A DNA stretch of 32,502 nucleotides from an uncultured Saprospiraceae bacterium (GTDB lineage Bacteria; Bacteroidota; Bacteroidia; Chitinophagales; Saprospiraceae). Below the pieces are notes generated by a model, which was not told the DNA's origin, searched no databases, and saw only the letters and a program-made list of their open reading frames with translations. Shown piece by piece: positions 3,663-32,502 of the stretch (position 1 is the stretch's first letter; each line of letters begins with the position of its first letter). The translations under genes and the position numbers were made by a program. The stretch covers positions 1 through 32,502 of the forward strand of contig CALJVI010000313.1 of the NCBI GenBank assembly GCA_937974575.1, given 5' to 3'.

Positions 3663-3684
3663 TTATTATTTAGTTTGGACTAGC

Positions 3685-3888
3685 GCTGAGAAGGAGGGCT
3701 ACTAGTGTAGAGCCTGGTAGCGCAAGCAGTAGCAGACATCTTGCACATCCCAATGACCAGCGGGAATGGGATGTGTAAGATGGCCGAGCGAATAGCGAGC
3801 TCCGTATCATAGCGACTCCGTCTGTGCGTCAGGCAGTCGGGTAGGGTATGTGGCGAAAGCTAGAAGTAGTGCTGACGGAGTAGGCCCC
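3685..3888 (-). repeat. Copy B (inverted, diverged) of a structured intergenic element family: GGGGCC - stem - TCGCTAYG - structured tail
   Basis: Reverse complement reads GGGGCCTACTCCGTC...GACGGAGTCGCTATGATACGGAGCTCGCTATTCGCTCGG..., the same architecture as the elements at 6027 and 23133. Outer stem arms 3815-3822 / 3874-3881. Second hairpin 3737-3752 / 3767-3782. The inner boundary is approximate. Confidence 0.6.
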
Positions 3889-6026: not shown

Positions 6027-6183
6027 TGGGGCCATCCCATACTAGAAGAGACCTTGCGCGCAAGGTCTCTTCTAGTATGGGTCGCTACGTTTCAGGACTC
6101 GGTGTTCACCTCGGTACGCGGCTTGTCCGACATCCTCAGCGCGCACTTCCTCGTACCTCGTCACCCTTGCACATCGCTTGTCC
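6027..6183 (+). repeat. Copy A of the structured intergenic element family, containing a perfect 46-bp palindrome
   Basis: GGGGCCAT followed by CCCATACTAGAAGAGACCTTGCG|CGCAAGGTCTCTTCTAGTATGGG (6036-6081, two perfect 23-nt arms), then TCGCTACGTTTCAGGACTCGG...CTTGCACATCGCTTGTCC. Aligns along its length with 23133-23291. Confidence 0.85.
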
Positions 6184-7541: not shown

Positions 7542-7560
7542 GTAAAACAGACTGGATAAA

Positions 7561-7600
7561 AAAACGCGTGACTTGAAACAAGTCACGCGTTTTTTTTTGG
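7561..7600. terminator. Bidirectional intrinsic terminator between convergent genes
   Basis: AAAACGCGTGACTT (7561-7574) - GAAAC - AAGTCACGCGTTTT (7580-7593), perfect 14-bp arms with T-run on the + side and A-run (T-run on the - strand) on the other. Lies between the stop at 7541(+) and the stop at 7624(-). Confidence 0.92.
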
Positions 7601-8639: not shown

Positions 8640-11600
8640 TTGGATAAAGGAAGAACATATTATTTGATTGCACTGCTATCGGTCCTGATATTGCACGCAA
8701 CCACTAATTTTTTCACATTTGATCAGACTTATGATGCTTATGTGCACATCTTCTTTGCCGATCATTATGCTGAAAATTGGTTTGACAACTGGGATTACCG
8801 TTGGTATACTGGATTTAACATTACGTCATATCCACCTTTAGTACATCAGATTGTAGCCTTGCTTTCAATGGTAATGGGCTTAAAGCTGGCATTTTTCTTT
8901 TGGTCTGTGCTTATGGTCTTGTGGTTGGTAAGAGGGATGTACTACTTTGCGCAGCTGTGGGTCAGTAAAGAGGCAGCAGGTATTGCTGCAATTTTGATGG
9001 TGTTTACGGGGAGTCTTACAGAAGCAATGCATATTTTTGGTCAGATCCCTAGTATCACGGGAATTGCTTTTCTACTGAATTCATGCCCAGAAATATATAA
9101 GTGGATCATCACTAATAAACGATCTCATCTTTGGTTAAGTATTGCATTTTTAAGTGTTACTTCAGCAGCACACCATGTCACTACCATTTTTGGAATGGTG
9201 TTTTTTATTTTTCCTACTATTGGTTTAGCCTTAATAGATCTTTGTATTCAAGATAAAGGATCTATAGAGGATGTCCGTATCAAAGACTTTTTTACAAAAA
9301 TGGCAAGCTACTTAACACGGCTTATACCATTTGGTGTCGCAGTGGGACTGATTGTTATAATTGTTATTTTTCCTTATTGGGTCTGGACCAACTCGGATCC
9401 AATAAGTCAAGTCCCGATTCCGCATGGCTCTAGAGAGTCATTTATCGAACAGCCGAATTTGGGCGTTATATTCTTTATCTTTCCATGGGGTATTATGTTG
9501 TTTGCCTTACCATATATAATCTCAAGATCATACTATCGTCGCCATATATTTATCGGCTTATCCTTGACCTTATTATTGATTTTAGGTACTGGTGGTACAA
9601 CCCCTATACCCAGATGGATACTTGGAGATCATGCATATGAAATTCTTACTCTAGATAGATTTACATTCTGGGCAACTTTAATTTCTGTCCCATTCTTTGG
9701 GGAATTTATGCATAAGTTATATACTGGTGAACTTAAGAAAATTAAATACAACTCACACTTTAGAAAATTTACTTTAGTGTTTTTCTCTCTGGGTATTATT
9801 ATTTTTAATGTCCTGATTGTGAATGCGGGTTACTTTCAAGCTTTCCAGCCAAAAGAGATAGATCCCAATCCTATAGTTAATTTCCTAAGTCGAGATAAGC
9901 ATAGTGACTGGCGATATATGACCTTAGGCTTTGGAGATCAAATGGCGTGGTTATCTGCTAATACGGATGCCTTATCCGTTGATGGCAATTACCATAGTGC
10001 AAGAAGACTGCCTGAGATGACCTCAAAGGCTGTAGAACGATTAGAAAATGCAAAATACCAAGGGGAAGAAGGCATTAGTTCTTTAAGAGAGTTTTTAACG
10101 GTACCTGAAAAGTTTAGCTTGAAATTCATTTTTGCAAATGATAAATTCTATGAACCAATTCTGTTTTTTCTCGGCTGGGATAAGATTAGTCAATTGGAAA
10201 ACAATGTCGTAGTATGGCAGCGGCCAGATGTACCGCCACTTCCAGATTTATTGCCCAGAAAGAATATCCCTTCTATTCAAAGATTCATGTGGGGTGTTTT
10301 ACCGCTGATCTGTTTTTGCTTTGCTGTCTTTCTTTACATCAAGCAGCTATACACGAAAAATTGGGTTATGTTCAATTCTTCATTGTCGCAATTGATAAAG
10401 CTAACAAAGCCAGAGATTAGGAGAAAGTCCGTATGGTTTACCCAGTCTGCTTGGATGATATTCTTGCTTCTTCTATCCGTTGGGTTTGCTTCTTTCGTCG
10501 CCATCAATCATGACGATCATGCCAGCCCTGAACGAGTTATTAACGCATATTTTGATGCAATAAATTATAAGAAATTTAAGAAAGCTTACTCCTACTTAGA
10601 TAAGGAGACGAGGCCAACGATGGATCAGTATATGCTGGAGCTTTCCTTGGAAGATGGAATTTTAGCCTCTTACTCGATTCTTGACTCTATTAAAATGTTG
10701 GATGTAAGCTATGAAAGTGCTACTGAGGCTAAGACAACAGTGGGCGTATTGTCTACGACTTCACTTATGAATTATAATACCACTGAATACTTGGATTTAG
10801 TAAAAAGAGATGGAGGTTGGTATTTAAAGCATGATGTATTTGAAAAGGATGTTCCTGCAGATCAATTCTTCGGTATTCCCGATATTTCCTTTCATAAACA
10901 AGGTAGAAGAAAAGCGGATGTCAGTACAACACGACGTGAGGATGTTTTGGATCGACCAGAAGCATTCATTCTTCAATCCTCGCTTGTGCAAAAAGATGGC
11001 AACTATTACATCGTCGGTGAAGTACAAAATGTAGATAATGTACCAGCTTATATCACAGTAGAGGGATCATTGTTGGATGAAAAAGGGAAACTAATTTCGA
11101 GGTATAATGCAGGAAATGCTATTGTGCATAGGTTATTACCAAACGAGAAGACTCCTTTTAGGATTGATTTTGAAAGTCAATTGGATTCTTTAGAAGAAAA
11201 CTATTTGTACCTAGAAAGTAACCAGGATTATGCAAATGAAGTATACAAGGTACCTGATGACTTCAATGTTTTCATTAGAACTATGGTTAGCGGGCAGAAA
11301 ATGTATAAACTGATGGGAGTTAAAGAGCTGTCTGTCAGTGGAAATGATGTGAATGGTTCATTGGTTAATTATGGGACAAATGAAATAAGTATTCCTCAAA
11401 TTTTACTTGCAGAATATGATCAGAGTAACCAGTTGAAATGGATAGAAACTAAATACCTGAACAGTGGTCTTAGGCCTCAACGTAAAAAGAAATTCAAGAT
11501 TAAGTCTAAAATAGACGAAGTGTTGCTGGTGAAAACGGGAAGTGAAAACCAACTATTTGTAAACGGAACTTCCAAAGGGCAAATGAAATACTTCGATAGA

Positions 11601-11702
11601 ATTGAAGATCATCTAAATGAACAGAATAATATAAAACTAAATAAAATTGATAAGAGTACTTTGAAAATCTATATGAACTGCTTTGTATATGATTTAAATT
11701 AA
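8640..11702 (+). CDS. Large multi-pass membrane protein of the 6-pyruvoyl-tetrahydropterin-synthase-related (PTPS_related, GT-C-like) type, with C-terminal NTF2-like and FxLYD-like extracytoplasmic regions; TTG start
   Basis: N-terminal membrane half with HIFFADHYAENWFDNWDYRWYTGFNITSYPPLVHQ. C-terminal soluble part ERVINAYFDAINYKKFKKAYSYL... (NTF2-like) then YYIVGEVQNVDNVPAYITVEGSLLDEKG (FxLYD-like). In-frame stop upstream at 8625; only TTG at 8640 (or ATT) gives this start. Confidence 0.72.
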   Translation: MDKGRTYYLIALLSVLILHATTNFFTFDQTYDAYVHIFFADHYAENWFDNWDYRWYTGFNITSYPPLVHQIVALLSMVMGLKLAFFFWSVLMVLWLVRGMYYFAQLWVSKEAAGIAAILMVFTGSLTEAMHIFGQIPSITGIAFLLNSCPEIYKWIITNKRSHLWLSIAFLSVTSAAHHVTTIFGMVFFIFPTIGLALIDLCIQDKGSIEDVRIKDFFTKMASYLTRLIPFGVAVGLIVIIVIFPYWVWTNSDPISQVPIPHGSRESFIEQPNLGVIFFIFPWGIMLFALPYIISRSYYRRHIFIGLSLTLLLILGTGGTTPIPRWILGDHAYEILTLDRFTFWATLISVPFFGEFMHKLYTGELKKIKYNSHFRKFTLVFFSLGIIIFNVLIVNAGYFQAFQPKEIDPNPIVNFLSRDKHSDWRYMTLGFGDQMAWLSANTDALSVDGNYHSARRLPEMTSKAVERLENAKYQGEEGISSLREFLTVPEKFSLKFIFANDKFYEPILFFLGWDKISQLENNVVVWQRPDVPPLPDLLPRKNIPSIQRFMWGVLPLICFCFAVFLYIKQLYTKNWVMFNSSLSQLIKLTKPEIRRKSVWFTQSAWMIFLLLLSVGFASFVAINHDDHASPERVINAYFDAINYKKFKKAYSYLDKETRPTMDQYMLELSLEDGILASYSILDSIKMLDVSYESATEAKTTVGVLSTTSLMNYNTTEYLDLVKRDGGWYLKHDVFEKDVPADQFFGIPDISFHKQGRRKADVSTTRREDVLDRPEAFILQSSLVQKDGNYYIVGEVQNVDNVPAYITVEGSLLDEKGKLISRYNAGNAIVHRLLPNEKTPFRIDFESQLDSLEENYLYLESNQDYANEVYKVPDDFNVFIRTMVSGQKMYKLMGVKELSVSGNDVNGSLVNYGTNEISIPQILLAEYDQSNQLKWIETKYLNSGLRPQRKKKFKIKSKIDEVLLVKTGSENQLFVNGTSKGQMKYFDRIEDHLNEQNNIKLNKIDKSTLKIYMNCFVYDLN

Positions 11703-14915: not shown

Positions 14916-16208
14916 TTACTTGTTTTCTGTAATTAGCTTCTGAAAATGCATGATATACCAATCTGCAATATCAGACATTGGTAAGCCATTTGCCGCTACA
15001 AAATTTTGTTTAGCATTTCTTTTTCTATGATCATTATTTGTAAGCAACTTCTGCATGGCCATTGCCATTTCAGGTATACTATCCGGAGTAAAATATTCTC
15101 CGGTATATCCTTCTTCGGTTATGAGTTCTTTTAGATCTCCGATGTTGGGCAGCATAACCGCTTTTCCATAACTACCTGCCTGATGCAATACTCCAGAGCT
15201 TCCAGTAGTACTCGTATAGTCAAATGCGACAATAGTACTTGAAGAAAATAATCCAGCTACGTCTTCCTCTTCAACATATCCTGTAAAATGTATTCCTTCT
15301 GTATCTGCATATTTTTCTTTTACATTCTGTAAGTACCCTTTTACATTTGGATTGTCTGTCCCTGCTATGGTCAATTCAATAGGGAAGTCTACCAGACTTC
15401 TGACTTCAATCATTGCTTCTATTAGATTTTCTACTTTTTTGTAGGTGCCAAATTTTCCAAAAGTCAATATCTTTCTCACTTCAGGATTGTAGTCGAAGTC
15501 TGGTGTTTCCGCCGACTCAAAACTTCCATGCGGCAGTAGTGCTACATTTTTGCAGCCATACTTTTTTTCTAGGATATGAACATACTTTGGTATAGTTACC
15601 CCGACTAGATTAGCTGACAGTATGATTTTAGTTATTTGTTTTCCTATGAAGTTATACATGCTCTTCATTATGGGATTCTGTGTGATTCCTGCTGAATCAT
15701 AATCTACCGTCTCTATGATATTGTGTAGCAATACCATAGAAGGTATACCATTCCATTTTGTCATCAATGGACTAAGGAGTCCAAGGGTTGCCGCAACTTT
15801 GCTGTCTCCAAAAGACAAAAATTGTAGATTATACAAAACTACATCTGGCTTAATGTCATTAATAGATTTTTTAATCTTTACTGCGGTATTCATTTTATTA
15901 AACGACCATACAGGATGAATAAACAGATTTTTAGGTCTATCCTTTGCAGGATAAGCCTTATTGTCTGGCAATATATCTGTGATGATATGAATTTCCTTAA
16001 TATCTCCTTTTTGCTTGAATTGTTCTATAAGATGAAATGCATATTCGTTCAATGTTCCCTTACTAGGTGGATATGGAGAAACTATAGCTACGACTTGTGC
16101 TTCATATGCAGTAGATACTTCCTTATGATGGGCTATAGTTGGATTGCTTTTGGGCAAATCAGCTACAAATTTAGAGGGACGATTAATGCTTGAGGCGTTA
16201 TTTTTCAT
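14916..16208 (-). CDS. Family 4-type glycosyltransferase (glycosyl transferase group 1)
   Basis: VAIVSPYPPSKGTLNEYAFHL; KILTFGKFGTYKKVENLIEAM; HFTGYVEEEDVAGLFSSSTIVAFDYTSTTGSSGVLHQAGSYGKAVMLPNIG: GT-B E-x7-E-type region. Confidence 0.85.
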   Translation of the reverse strand: MKNNASSINRPSKFVADLPKSNPTIAHHKEVSTAYEAQVVAIVSPYPPSKGTLNEYAFHLIEQFKQKGDIKEIHIITDILPDNKAYPAKDRPKNLFIHPVWSFNKMNTAVKIKKSINDIKPDVVLYNLQFLSFGDSKVAATLGLLSPLMTKWNGIPSMVLLHNIIETVDYDSAGITQNPIMKSMYNFIGKQITKIILSANLVGVTIPKYVHILEKKYGCKNVALLPHGSFESAETPDFDYNPEVRKILTFGKFGTYKKVENLIEAMIEVRSLVDFPIELTIAGTDNPNVKGYLQNVKEKYADTEGIHFTGYVEEEDVAGLFSSSTIVAFDYTSTTGSSGVLHQAGSYGKAVMLPNIGDLKELITEEGYTGEYFTPDSIPEMAMAMQKLLTNNDHRKRNAKQNFVAANGLPMSDIADWYIMHFQKLITENK

Positions 16209-23132: not shown

Positions 23133-23293
23133 GGGGCCTACCCATGCTAGAGAAGACGTTGAAAATAACGTCTCCTCTAGCATGGGTCGCTACGTTCCAT
23201 GACTCGCTAGTCAGCTCGGTCCTCAGCCTGCGCTACATCCTAGGCACGGACTAGCGCCTTATCAGTCGCTACCATTGCACGTCGCTAGTCCGT
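23133..23293 (+). repeat. Copy C of the structured intergenic element family
   Basis: GGGGCCTA followed by CCCATGCTAGAGAAGACGTT-gaaaat-AACGTCTCCTCTAGCATGGG (23141-23186, 19/20 paired), then TCGCTACGTTCCATGACTCGCTAGTCAGCTCGG...TTGCACGTCGCTAGTCCGT. Second stem 23246-23256 / 23283-23293 (ACGGACTAGCG / CGCTAGTCCGT, 11 bp perfect). Confidence 0.85.
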
Positions 23294-27184: not shown

Positions 27185-27209
27185 TTAAAAGTACTTTGAA
27201 AATCAAAGT
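27185..27209. promoter_or_regulatory. Operator-like site 1: TTAAAAGTACTTTGAA-aat-CAAAGT
   Basis: Contains the inverted repeat ACTTTGA-aaa-TCAAAGT and the palindrome AAAGTACTTT. Same 16-mer plus 6-mer at the same spacing as 28261-28285. Confidence 0.6.
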
Positions 27210-27293
27210 GAATGGACAAAAAAAATATACATTCAAGACCTGTTTTTAGCAAACAGCAGAGATGTAGTATTATTTCATTAAGTGTGGTCATTT

Positions 27294-28260: not shown

Positions 28261-28285
28261 TTAAAAGTACTTTGAATTACAAAGT
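28261..28285. promoter_or_regulatory. Operator-like site 2: TTAAAAGTACTTTGAA-tta-CAAAGT
   Basis: Immediately upstream (8 bp) of the 28252(-) start. 22/25 identical to 27185-27209, all differences in the 3-nt spacer. Confidence 0.62.
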
Positions 28286-28395
28286 TAATCATTTATTTTC
28301 AAAACGCAAATAGGAGACCCTTTATTATTTCAAGGTGAAATAATCTAAAATAATATACAAACTAAGAGTTGAAATATATCGTAAGCAGCATCTAC

Positions 28396-30565: not shown

Positions 30566-30622
30566 TTATTTCAACTATTTGTTATATGTTATCCGATGCA
30601 TTCTGCATTCCGAAATAAACAG

Positions 30623-30653
30623 CCTGAATGCATACCCTATTCAGGTTATTTTT
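30623..30653 (+). terminator. Probable intrinsic terminator after the MATE gene
   Basis: CCTGAAT (30623-30629) / ATTCAGG (30639-30645) followed by TTATTTTT. Confidence 0.6.
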
Positions 30654-30730
30654 GGCAATAAGAATTCACATTTTTTGACTTAAGGAGCCAATGAAGGTAT
30701 ATTAGAGCCTTGCGCAATTGCGCTCTAATG

Positions 30731-32502
30731 ATGAATCTTCCCATGGACAAATCTATTACTATCAGAACTATTTACACCATAGTGTTTTGTGCCCTTTTTG
30801 GTTCCTTATTTGGCCAAAACGCTAAGCCAAGGGGCCTTACTGAAAACTCCATTCCTGTCCCAACTTCTATTACTATTCCTGCTATTTCTTACGAAGCTGT
30901 TGAGAAGCGAGACAAAGCTAATTTCTGGAATGACCGTGTGTCTGTTCCAGCCTCAGTTGACCACGACCTTACCAACAGTGGGGATTGGCATACTTTAGCT
31001 AATGGTGACCGTATTTGGAGGCTTCAAGTAAATTGCAAAAACTCCAAAGGTCTTGCATTCATGTTTAGACATGTGTCGATACCTGCAGGAGCTAGCTTAC
31101 ATTTTTATTCTCTAGATGGAAAGCATATTGTCAAAAGCTTCGAGTCTATAGACATTAACAGTCAAGGTAATCTTGTAGCAGGTCCAATCGTTGGGACGTC
31201 CGCTATTATAGAATATTATGAGCCGCAACATCTCAAAGGTCAAGGACAATTTGACTTATTCAATGTGCAGCGTTTATATAAAGATTTTTTACCCTCTGCG
31301 CCATCTAGTGATCCACAAAGAGCCTTCGGTGATGCATGGAATTGTCAGGTCAATGTAGAGTGTATAGACACAGATTATTTTGATGATGCAAAGCGATCCG
31401 TAGTGCGTATCCTCATGACGATGGAGGAGGGGATGATCTACTGTAGTGGTGGATTGATCAACAATACTGCACAAGATATGACACCCTATATCTTATCGGC
31501 TTTTCACTGTTCTAGTGATCTTACTCCGATGTATGATTTCTTTAGATTTGATTTCAATTTTGCAAGTCCATTTTGTACCAACCCAACTCAAGAACCACCA
31601 TACAATTCACTTGTAGGGTGTACCTCTGTTGCAGGCAATGCGGATAGTGATTTTGAACTATTACGTCTTTTCCAATCTATACCTACCTCTTTCAATGCCT
31701 ATTTTGCTGGATGGAATAGGACATTAGATTACAGGCCTGATACGACTACACTTATTCATCACCCATCAGGGGATATCAGAAAGATATCTCAAGAATTTAG
31801 TCAAATTCTTATTTTCAATAGTACCATCGAATGGGACAATGGATTAGTGACTACACCTCGTTCTCACTATAGAGGATTTTTAGATCTTGGCGCATTTCAA
31901 GGAGGCTCATCAGGGGCACCACTATTTGATGATAATGGGCACATTGTAGCTCAGCTGCATGGAGGAGACGCAGAATGCGATAATCCGAAAGCGTTCTCGG
32001 GTATATTTGCAAAGTCTTGGACAGGTGGAGGTTCTCCCATTACCAGACTTAGAGAATGGTTAGATCCCATCAATGCTGGCAACTTGGTACAGCAGGGTCT
32101 CGATCCAAGTAATTCAAATTCTAGCCTTGGCAGCATTAGTGGCAAAGTAAAAGATGCCAACGGAGGACCTATGTCCAATACTATTGTTTATCTTAATTCA
32201 GATGGAGTATACCCACGGTCGACTGCGACGATATTGGATTCTACATTCACGGACAGCAACGGCCTTTTTTCTTTTACACAATTAGACATTGGCGTCGACT
32301 ATTATGTCTCCGCAGCTAATGACAAGTGTGAACGAGATGGTATCGCAGTGAGTGACATTACGCGCGTGATCAATCATTTGCTGTACCAGCAAAGATTTAC
32401 ATCCCCTTATCAATACATAGTAGCGGATGTAAATAATGATGGTCAAGTCAGTGTCAATGATATTCTTTTTGTACGCTTTTTATTGCTCAATAATATCCAG
32501 AG
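30731..32502 (+). CDS. Secreted trypsin-fold (lysyl-endopeptidase-like) serine protease with a Cna-B/carboxypeptidase-regulatory-like domain and a dockerin-like tail; 3' end outside window
   Basis: Manual translation from ATG 30731 is open to the window end (about 590 codons): MNLPMDKSITIRTIYTIVFCALFGSLFGQ signal; SAFHCSSD (His), FQGGSSGAPLFDDNGHIVAQLHGGD (Ser, GSSGAP at about 31904-31921); GSISGKVKDANGGPMSNTIVYLNSDG; ADVNNDGQVSVNDILFVRFLLL. Not in the ORF track because it is truncated. Confidence 0.85.
   Translation, partial: MNLPMDKSITIRTIYTIVFCALFGSLFGQNAKPRGLTENSIPVPTSITIPAISYEAVEKRDKANFWNDRVSVPASVDHDLTNSGDWHTLANGDRIWRLQVNCKNSKGLAFMFRHVSIPAGASLHFYSLDGKHIVKSFESIDINSQGNLVAGPIVGTSAIIEYYEPQHLKGQGQFDLFNVQRLYKDFLPSAPSSDPQRAFGDAWNCQVNVECIDTDYFDDAKRSVVRILMTMEEGMIYCSGGLINNTAQDMTPYILSAFHCSSDLTPMYDFFRFDFNFASPFCTNPTQEPPYNSLVGCTSVAGNADSDFELLRLFQSIPTSFNAYFAGWNRTLDYRPDTTTLIHHPSGDIRKISQEFSQILIFNSTIEWDNGLVTTPRSHYRGFLDLGAFQGGSSGAPLFDDNGHIVAQLHGGDAECDNPKAFSGIFAKSWTGGGSPITRLREWLDPINAGNLVQQGLDPSNSNSSLGSISGKVKDANGGPMSNTIVYLNSDGVYPRSTATILDSTFTDSNGLFSFTQLDIGVDYYVSAANDKCERDGIAVSDITRVINHLLYQQRFTSPYQYIVADVNNDGQVSVNDILFVRFLLLNNIQ

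Follow-up and report, generated by a model that had tools for sequence, protein, structure and literature searches.

The BIME (REP/PU) elements are high-copy intergenic hairpin repeats that are non-coding, mosaic in their motifs and not fixed in orientation. In the strict E. coli sense, they are composed of alternating REP/PU units with defined linkers. Integron attC sites provide a likeness of another kind, namely in how they work, since their function is conserved in structure rather than in sequence and their folding is strand-specific. The repeats of REPIN-RAYT systems occur in hundreds of copies with conserved ends and a diverse interior, fold as single strands and demonstrate long persistence (PMC2817692, PMC3116915, PMC8049555). 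The RPE, ERIC, RUP and CIR repeats are dispersed stem-loop elements of about 100-150 nt, and several such families may be present in one genome (review PMC2229807).

The repeats described here share many of these features and differ in others. They were identified on a contig of an uncultured Saprospiraceae bacterium (the window, 32,502 nucleotides). As elements that are high-copy, intergenic and composed of recurring motifs in varying combinations, they belong with the BIMEs in a broad sense. In contrast to the strict BIME, however, the mosaic is contained within one closed fold that has a two-strand conserved core (P1-hp1-core-P3-P4-P5), the modules are exchanged at fixed sites, and there is no REP tetranucleotide-type hairpin in alternating orientation. 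Compared to REPINs, in which a spacer separates two short REPs in inverted orientation, the ends and core are laid out differently; the elements are roughly 110-220 nt in length with five helices, a non-canonical core and in-situ replacement, and no RAYT/Y1 gene was found in two high-copy genomes. The hypervariable paired stems, modular replacement and co-switching cores are undescribed for RPE, ERIC, RUP and CIR in the text searched. Unlike attC sites, the elements carry no cassette genes and are dispersed singly, and their consensus ends are GGAC.. and ..GGCCCC instead of RYYYAAC/GTTRRRY. On balance, the family is best considered as REP/BIME-like mosaic elements that are probably kept for their fold and remodelled by ectopic gene conversion.

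The window contains three copies, all of them intergenic as the first-pass annotation had stated. Copies A and C were described there with the same order and lengths, which is borne out with ends refined to 6028-6183 and 23133-23291. The order in both is GGGGCC plus 2 nt, a perfect or near-perfect 46-nt hairpin, TCGCTACGTTYCA-GACTCG, and a tail that ends in TTGCAC-TCGCT-GTCC. The inverted and diverged copy B is indeed present on the minus strand, with an extent (3677-3888) slightly longer than the 3685-3888 first proposed. When compared to dinucleotide shuffles, the folding z-scores are -5.1 for A, -6.4 for C and, weakly, -1.8 for B. The parts of each copy are as follows.

6028..6183, + strand as first read (folding is probably on the opposite strand): copy A, whole element
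6028..6035, + strand: copy A, 5' end of P1 (GGGGCCAT), pairing with TTGTCC at 6178-6183; based on covariation of the W-W pair and the P1 pairs
6036..6081, + strand: copy A, hairpin 1, 46 nt, a 23-bp perfect inverted repeat with a sequence unlike other copies
6082..6101, + strand: copy A, first strand of the conserved core (TCGCTACGTTTCAGGACTCG)
6102..6169, + strand: copy A, hairpin modules P3, P4 and P5
6170..6183, + strand: copy A, second strand of the conserved core and 3' end of P1 (CACATCGCTTGTCC)
23133..23291, + strand: copy C, whole element
23141..23186, + strand: copy C, hairpin 1, 46 nt
23187..23206, + strand: copy C, first strand of the conserved core (TCGCTACGTTCCATGACTCG)
23278..23291, + strand: copy C, second strand of the conserved core and 3' end of P1 (CACGTCGCTAGTCC)
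3677..3888, - strand: copy B, the full element; its divergence is greater and its hairpin 1 larger, closed by a 7-bp stem
3796..3815, - strand: copy B, first strand of the conserved core (TCGCTATGATACGGAGCTCG)

Three other observations concern the window itself. A 29-nt direct repeat (TTAAAAGTACTTTGAAAATCAAAGTGAAT) at 27185-27213, 28261-28289 and also 11650-11678 is found upstream of two minus-strand genes and beside a small transcription-regulator-like gene; it is possibly a shared operator. At 7558-7596, an 18-bp perfect hairpin with A and T runs between convergent genes is probably a bidirectional terminator. The gene adjoining copy A encodes an acyl-CoA dehydrogenase, the sister-species orthologue of which (L226, G005:C61:33064-34221) has one TAG in the matched stretch.

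The family is much larger than the three copies first counted, a figure that was about twenty-fold too low. Exact matches to a 20-nt core (TCGYTAYGWTNCRNRRCTCG) number 43 in the 3.3-Mb genome of the window (G000), against none for the reversed pattern, and 65 matches against six are obtained when up to two mismatches are allowed, which greatly exceeds chance; the genome is estimated to hold about 60 copies of the element. Three of the five sister species that were checked carry the core in 15 to 30 exact copies each and two do not, and a genome of another genus (G017) has 46 copies. With one mismatch allowed, Saprospira grandis has 495 copies in strain Lewin and 436 in DSM 2844 (controls 0 and 0). 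Across 160 sampled Saprospiraceae genomes, counted by exact matching with a pattern slightly wider than the 20-nt core, there are 18 carriers with 1 to about 350 exact copies each, and these include S. grandis, Phaeodactylibacter luteus and Lewinella cohaerens. A search of Rfam release 15 returned no family at the gathering score, and below the threshold there were only hairpin-like chance matches. With further copies in the genome and in its relatives, and with no Rfam family matched, the outcomes that the first-pass annotation had named as refuting it did not arise. The genome announcement of strain WHT does not mention any repeats. The elements probably make up a family of interspersed mosaic repeats of Saprospiraceae that had not been named before, with no earlier description in the literature searched, of which coverage was partial.

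Two further families are high-copy, structured, intergenic and related in layout to the first. Family 3 (RGGCTATMCRTCACTCC) has 47 matches in G000 with none in the control, and family 2 (TAGTCTCTWACGCRCTCCG) has 21 with three in the control. Examples are L264, L310 and L316 for family 3, L281 and L299 for family 2, and also L241 at about 15790-16010.

In the fold of the family-1 element, the two ends pair with each other to form P1, which is followed by the hypervariable hairpin 1, the two-strand core, and a four-pair helix P2 that closes onto P3, P4 and P5. Pairing in P1 and between the core strands, tabulated for 105 copies, includes fixed exceptions. The stems of hairpin 1 differ in nearly every copy and most are still complementary. 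Covariation was evaluated with 44 distinct copies on an ungapped skeleton and a named 16-pair structure. In this set, 95.6% of cells were paired in comparison to 78.8% after shuffling and at most 54.5% in slid versions, over which the structure has an advantage as it was derived from the same 44 copies. Changes on both sides of a pair accounted for 117 cells against 31.9 in shuffles and were present in 11 of the 16 pairs. These double changes, along with the coupling of paired strands, are the stronger evidence for the fold. By the measure of a covarying secondary structure, the elements resemble structured non-coding RNAs. The fold is kept while the stem sequences are not.

As to which strand folds, the exceptions that are conserved oppose C to T or T to C on the strand as first read; they occupy a single position of P1, several positions of the core and the CTCG..CTCG pair in P3. 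On the opposite strand these become G.A pairs, and for this reason the opposite strand is probably the one that folds. There, P3 reads CGAG-Y-GAAUA-R-CGAG, which may be recognized as a tandem G.A hairpin from the established tandem sheared G.A motifs. Some copies have purine-rich GACGA-loop-GAGGA sequences in place of ordinary hairpins. A choice of strand from G-U versus A-C oppositions in the stems was also attempted and set aside, since isolated wobble-type mismatches (A.C 35, G.T 33) favor neither strand overall.

The features of the opposite strand also bear on whether the elements act as RNA. A structured RNA formed after transcription, be it an intercistronic or 3'-UTR element, a small RNA or a ribozyme with the minus strand active, is the main alternative to action as folded DNA. 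Such an RNA would fit the G.A pairs that appear on one strand in a conserved, non-canonical core, a P2 pair that is G-U on the opposite strand in 15 of 44 copies, tail stems with 12 A.C against two G.T on the strand as first read, and stems that are hypervariable yet paired. Many copies also start close behind a stop codon, including inside apparent operons. However, orientation with respect to the flanking genes is unbiased (++21, --26, -+18 and +-13 in a wider set), so that, within mRNAs, an RNA acting from one strand would lie antisense in half of the cases; in addition, there is no overall G-U preference and no Rfam family. The picture is similar on two plasmids, and all 27 copies there are clear of coding sequences. 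This randomness with respect to transcription favors a REP/BIME-like role at the level of DNA, and the RNA explanation is considered rather unlikely. As both strands are mixed within single regions, no replichore bias is suggested.

The first-pass annotation had proposed dispersed non-coding elements, either REP-like or structured RNAs. This was right in substance given the many intergenic copies and the covarying fold outside Rfam, and its interpretation as a whole is partly supported. The opposite folding strand, the hypervariable paired stems and the in-situ replacement of content were not visible from the window.

The paired strands are coupled to a degree that the hairpins are not. In S. 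grandis, the P2 strands are fully coupled as GCAG/CTGC, GGGG/CCCC and AGGG/CCCT (mutual information z 28.7), and the hairpin modules are near-independent, with z mostly between 1 and 4 and inflated by orthologous pairs in the sample. Among 220 elements, the core strands occur as three pairs, CGCTACG/ATCGCT (96), CGCTATG/AGCGCT (44) and GGGCTRTG/CCATCCCT (67), with no mixture between types among the 207 that were matched (96/96, 44/44 and 67/67). The exceptions are seven elements of a module-bearing variant and six with no recognized second strand. The second core type draws on the same repertoire of P3-P5 hairpins as the first. Core types also swap at a single site between strains, as seen for Lewin and DSM 2844 and, between paaC and paaD, for WH and CCB-QB6; that the site is the same is demonstrated by near-identical flanks.

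A 45-nt module (GTTACTCC..TCGTCGAACTGC..TTGTTGT) substitutes for the CTA of either core strand in S. grandis. Over 400 kb, two strains have 14 and 28 copies of it; examples are at L450 (about 30600-30750) and L452 (about 49660-49720).

The replacement of modules is most apparent between strains of S. grandis, which were compared over 400 kb each. In total, 31 sites could be matched, with the strand unchanged at each; flank identity has medians of 0.96 and 0.94. Among the 27 pairs that were parsed, hairpin 1 was replaced in 13, P4 in 14, P5 in 12, P3 in seven and P2 in six, and at eleven pairs only a single module was replaced. The swapped hairpins differ in both length and sequence, with neighboring modules unchanged and flanks that are about 95% identical. 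Many of the replaced versions recur unchanged elsewhere among the sites sampled in that strain (P5 17/24, P3 12/14, hairpin 1 14/26, P4 7/28). Replacement affects one module or a block of them, and the incoming versions are often ones present in other copies; the strain comparison points to exchange between copies. Given that the arms are replaced freely, a role for the hairpin arms as guide sequences is unlikely.

Four homologous replicons of about 53-57 kb, namely the plasmids of Lewin, WH and CCB-QB6 and a small contig of DSM 2844, present the same mosaics at fixed sites. At one of these, Lewin and CCB-QB6 have one haplotype, DSM 2844 and WH have another, and hairpin 1 is common to all four. 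One CCB-QB6 plasmid site has nothing but a short GTTACTCC..TTGTTGT module, bounded by GGGGC and GGCC. The plasmid is conserved in three Saprospira strains (NC_016936.1, NZ_CP110855.1 and NZ_CP116809.1; L450, L451 and L452), where it is about 53-55 kb, non-mobilizable and chromid-like in content, carrying most of purine synthesis (purB, D, F, H, N, Q, guaA, guaB) along with paa. Outside S. grandis, two elements about 3 kb apart in G017:C229 (L131 and L132) have hairpin 1 in common with its apical part inverted in one.

Within the genus of the window, the sites are fixed between sister species. All 26 pairs of family-1 sites are on the same strand, as are all five of family 3 (one spurious in-gene match excluded) and five of six of family 2. 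At the site of copy A, G004 has a family-1 copy in the same place and strand and G005 has a family-3 element. The site of copy B is occupied by a family-1 copy in the same place and strand in both G004 and G005. For copy C, the G005 copy (L234) is in the same place and strand, and G004 and G002 have a family-2 element. The content of these sites is less conserved: over 22 compared pairs, hairpin 1 has an identity of 0.49, equal to that of unrelated copies (0.487), in comparison to 0.85 for the core.

Drift alone, in which old copies diverge under selection for pairing with no exchange, might produce such a pattern. The flanks between sister species are mostly 65-80% identical, so that drift with compensation could explain the divergence of hairpin 1 in this genus; saturation of neutral positions is conceivable, compensatory changes may have rewritten the stems, and L019 and L032 provide instances of stepwise compensation. 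In S. grandis, on the other hand, hairpins differ wholly between flanks of about 95% identity and beside modules that have stayed the same, and their new versions turn up at other sites. Drift is thus contradicted for S. grandis and is possible as the main process in the genus of the window; as an explanation of the whole, it is very improbable.

Replacement could also be the work of a dedicated cassette-exchange or homing system that recognizes the folded ends or core and swaps cassettes at fixed sites. The switching of a core type as a unit at one site, the CCB-QB6 plasmid site with its lone short module, and the three families that are present together in G000, G002, G004 and G005 and absent together from G001 and G003 are all consistent with such a system. 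No associated gene was identified, however, and RVT_1 was not found in five carriers; furthermore, swaps of a single hairpin do not need the exchange of a whole cassette. In the window's (MAG) genus, one intergenic space is occupied by different families at eight sites, five on the same strand and three on opposite strands. As the density of elements gives about as many, family switching was rejected as a sign of exchange in that genus. A system of this kind is therefore held to be quite unlikely. Slightly less so, if still improbable, is the general notion that one or more dedicated proteins recognize the folded core and exchange gene-free cassettes among hundreds of fixed slots. If a dedicated exchange system did operate, each slot would carry a changing combination of hairpins.

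A non-autonomous transposable element of the REPIN or MITE type, spread by a Y1/HUH or other transposase and with no role for the host, would account for the high copy number, the patchy distribution (1 to about 350 exact copies in 18 of 160 genomes) and the dispersal over chromosome and plasmid. The first-pass annotation had likewise suggested Y1/HUH mobilization in trans, which found no support here. No Y1_Tnp gene (PF01797) was found in G000 or G017, for which the drafts are about 90% and 97% complete and absence is not proof, and S. grandis has one such gene per strain. No target-site duplication of the kind expected of a MITE or IS is present, as direct 4-7 nt k-mers in the flanks are about as frequent as in shuffled pairings. 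Reverse transcriptase genes, the hallmark of retrons, DGRs and group II introns, were sought as RVT_1 in G000, G002, G005, G017 and G058 and not found, with the qualification that some of these are incomplete drafts and absence is not proof. A mobilizer of either the Y1 or the reverse-transcriptase type is not supported. No clean empty site was found: a small module is still present at the shorter plasmid site of CCB-QB6, and a Lewin-only copy at position 9737 sits in rearranged flanks. Sites and strands are conserved, and copies are intact although old. Transposition with no host role is thus an unlikely account of the family, although an ancient spread by another enzyme is possible.

Returning to the REP/BIME-like elements remodelled by ectopic gene conversion, hairpins would be replaced by gene conversion or template switching between copies, with the short conserved boxes beside each hairpin serving as exchange points. 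A putative trans-acting protein would bind the strand that folds, in all probability the reverse of the one first read, and copies with mismatched core strands would be lost because it is the folded strand that is bound. The isolated wobble-type mismatches, which favor neither strand, count against this explanation, and so does a pattern seen in P2. There, both strands are sometimes changed with the hairpins in between unaltered; conversion in a single plain tract would not produce this, and either a second tract or compensatory selection is needed.

A cultured bacterium with complete genomes thus holds about 500 copies of an element that is nameless in the libraries and literature searched. 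Its site, strand and fold are kept while the sequence is rebuilt from interchangeable hairpins, even in strains that are about 93-95% identical. As a natural record of selection on a fold, the co-switching of distant core strands is unusually clean. Two long-standing questions thereby become open to direct testing: which selective force maintains REP-like repeats in bacteria, and by what route short dispersed repeats bring about conversion among themselves.
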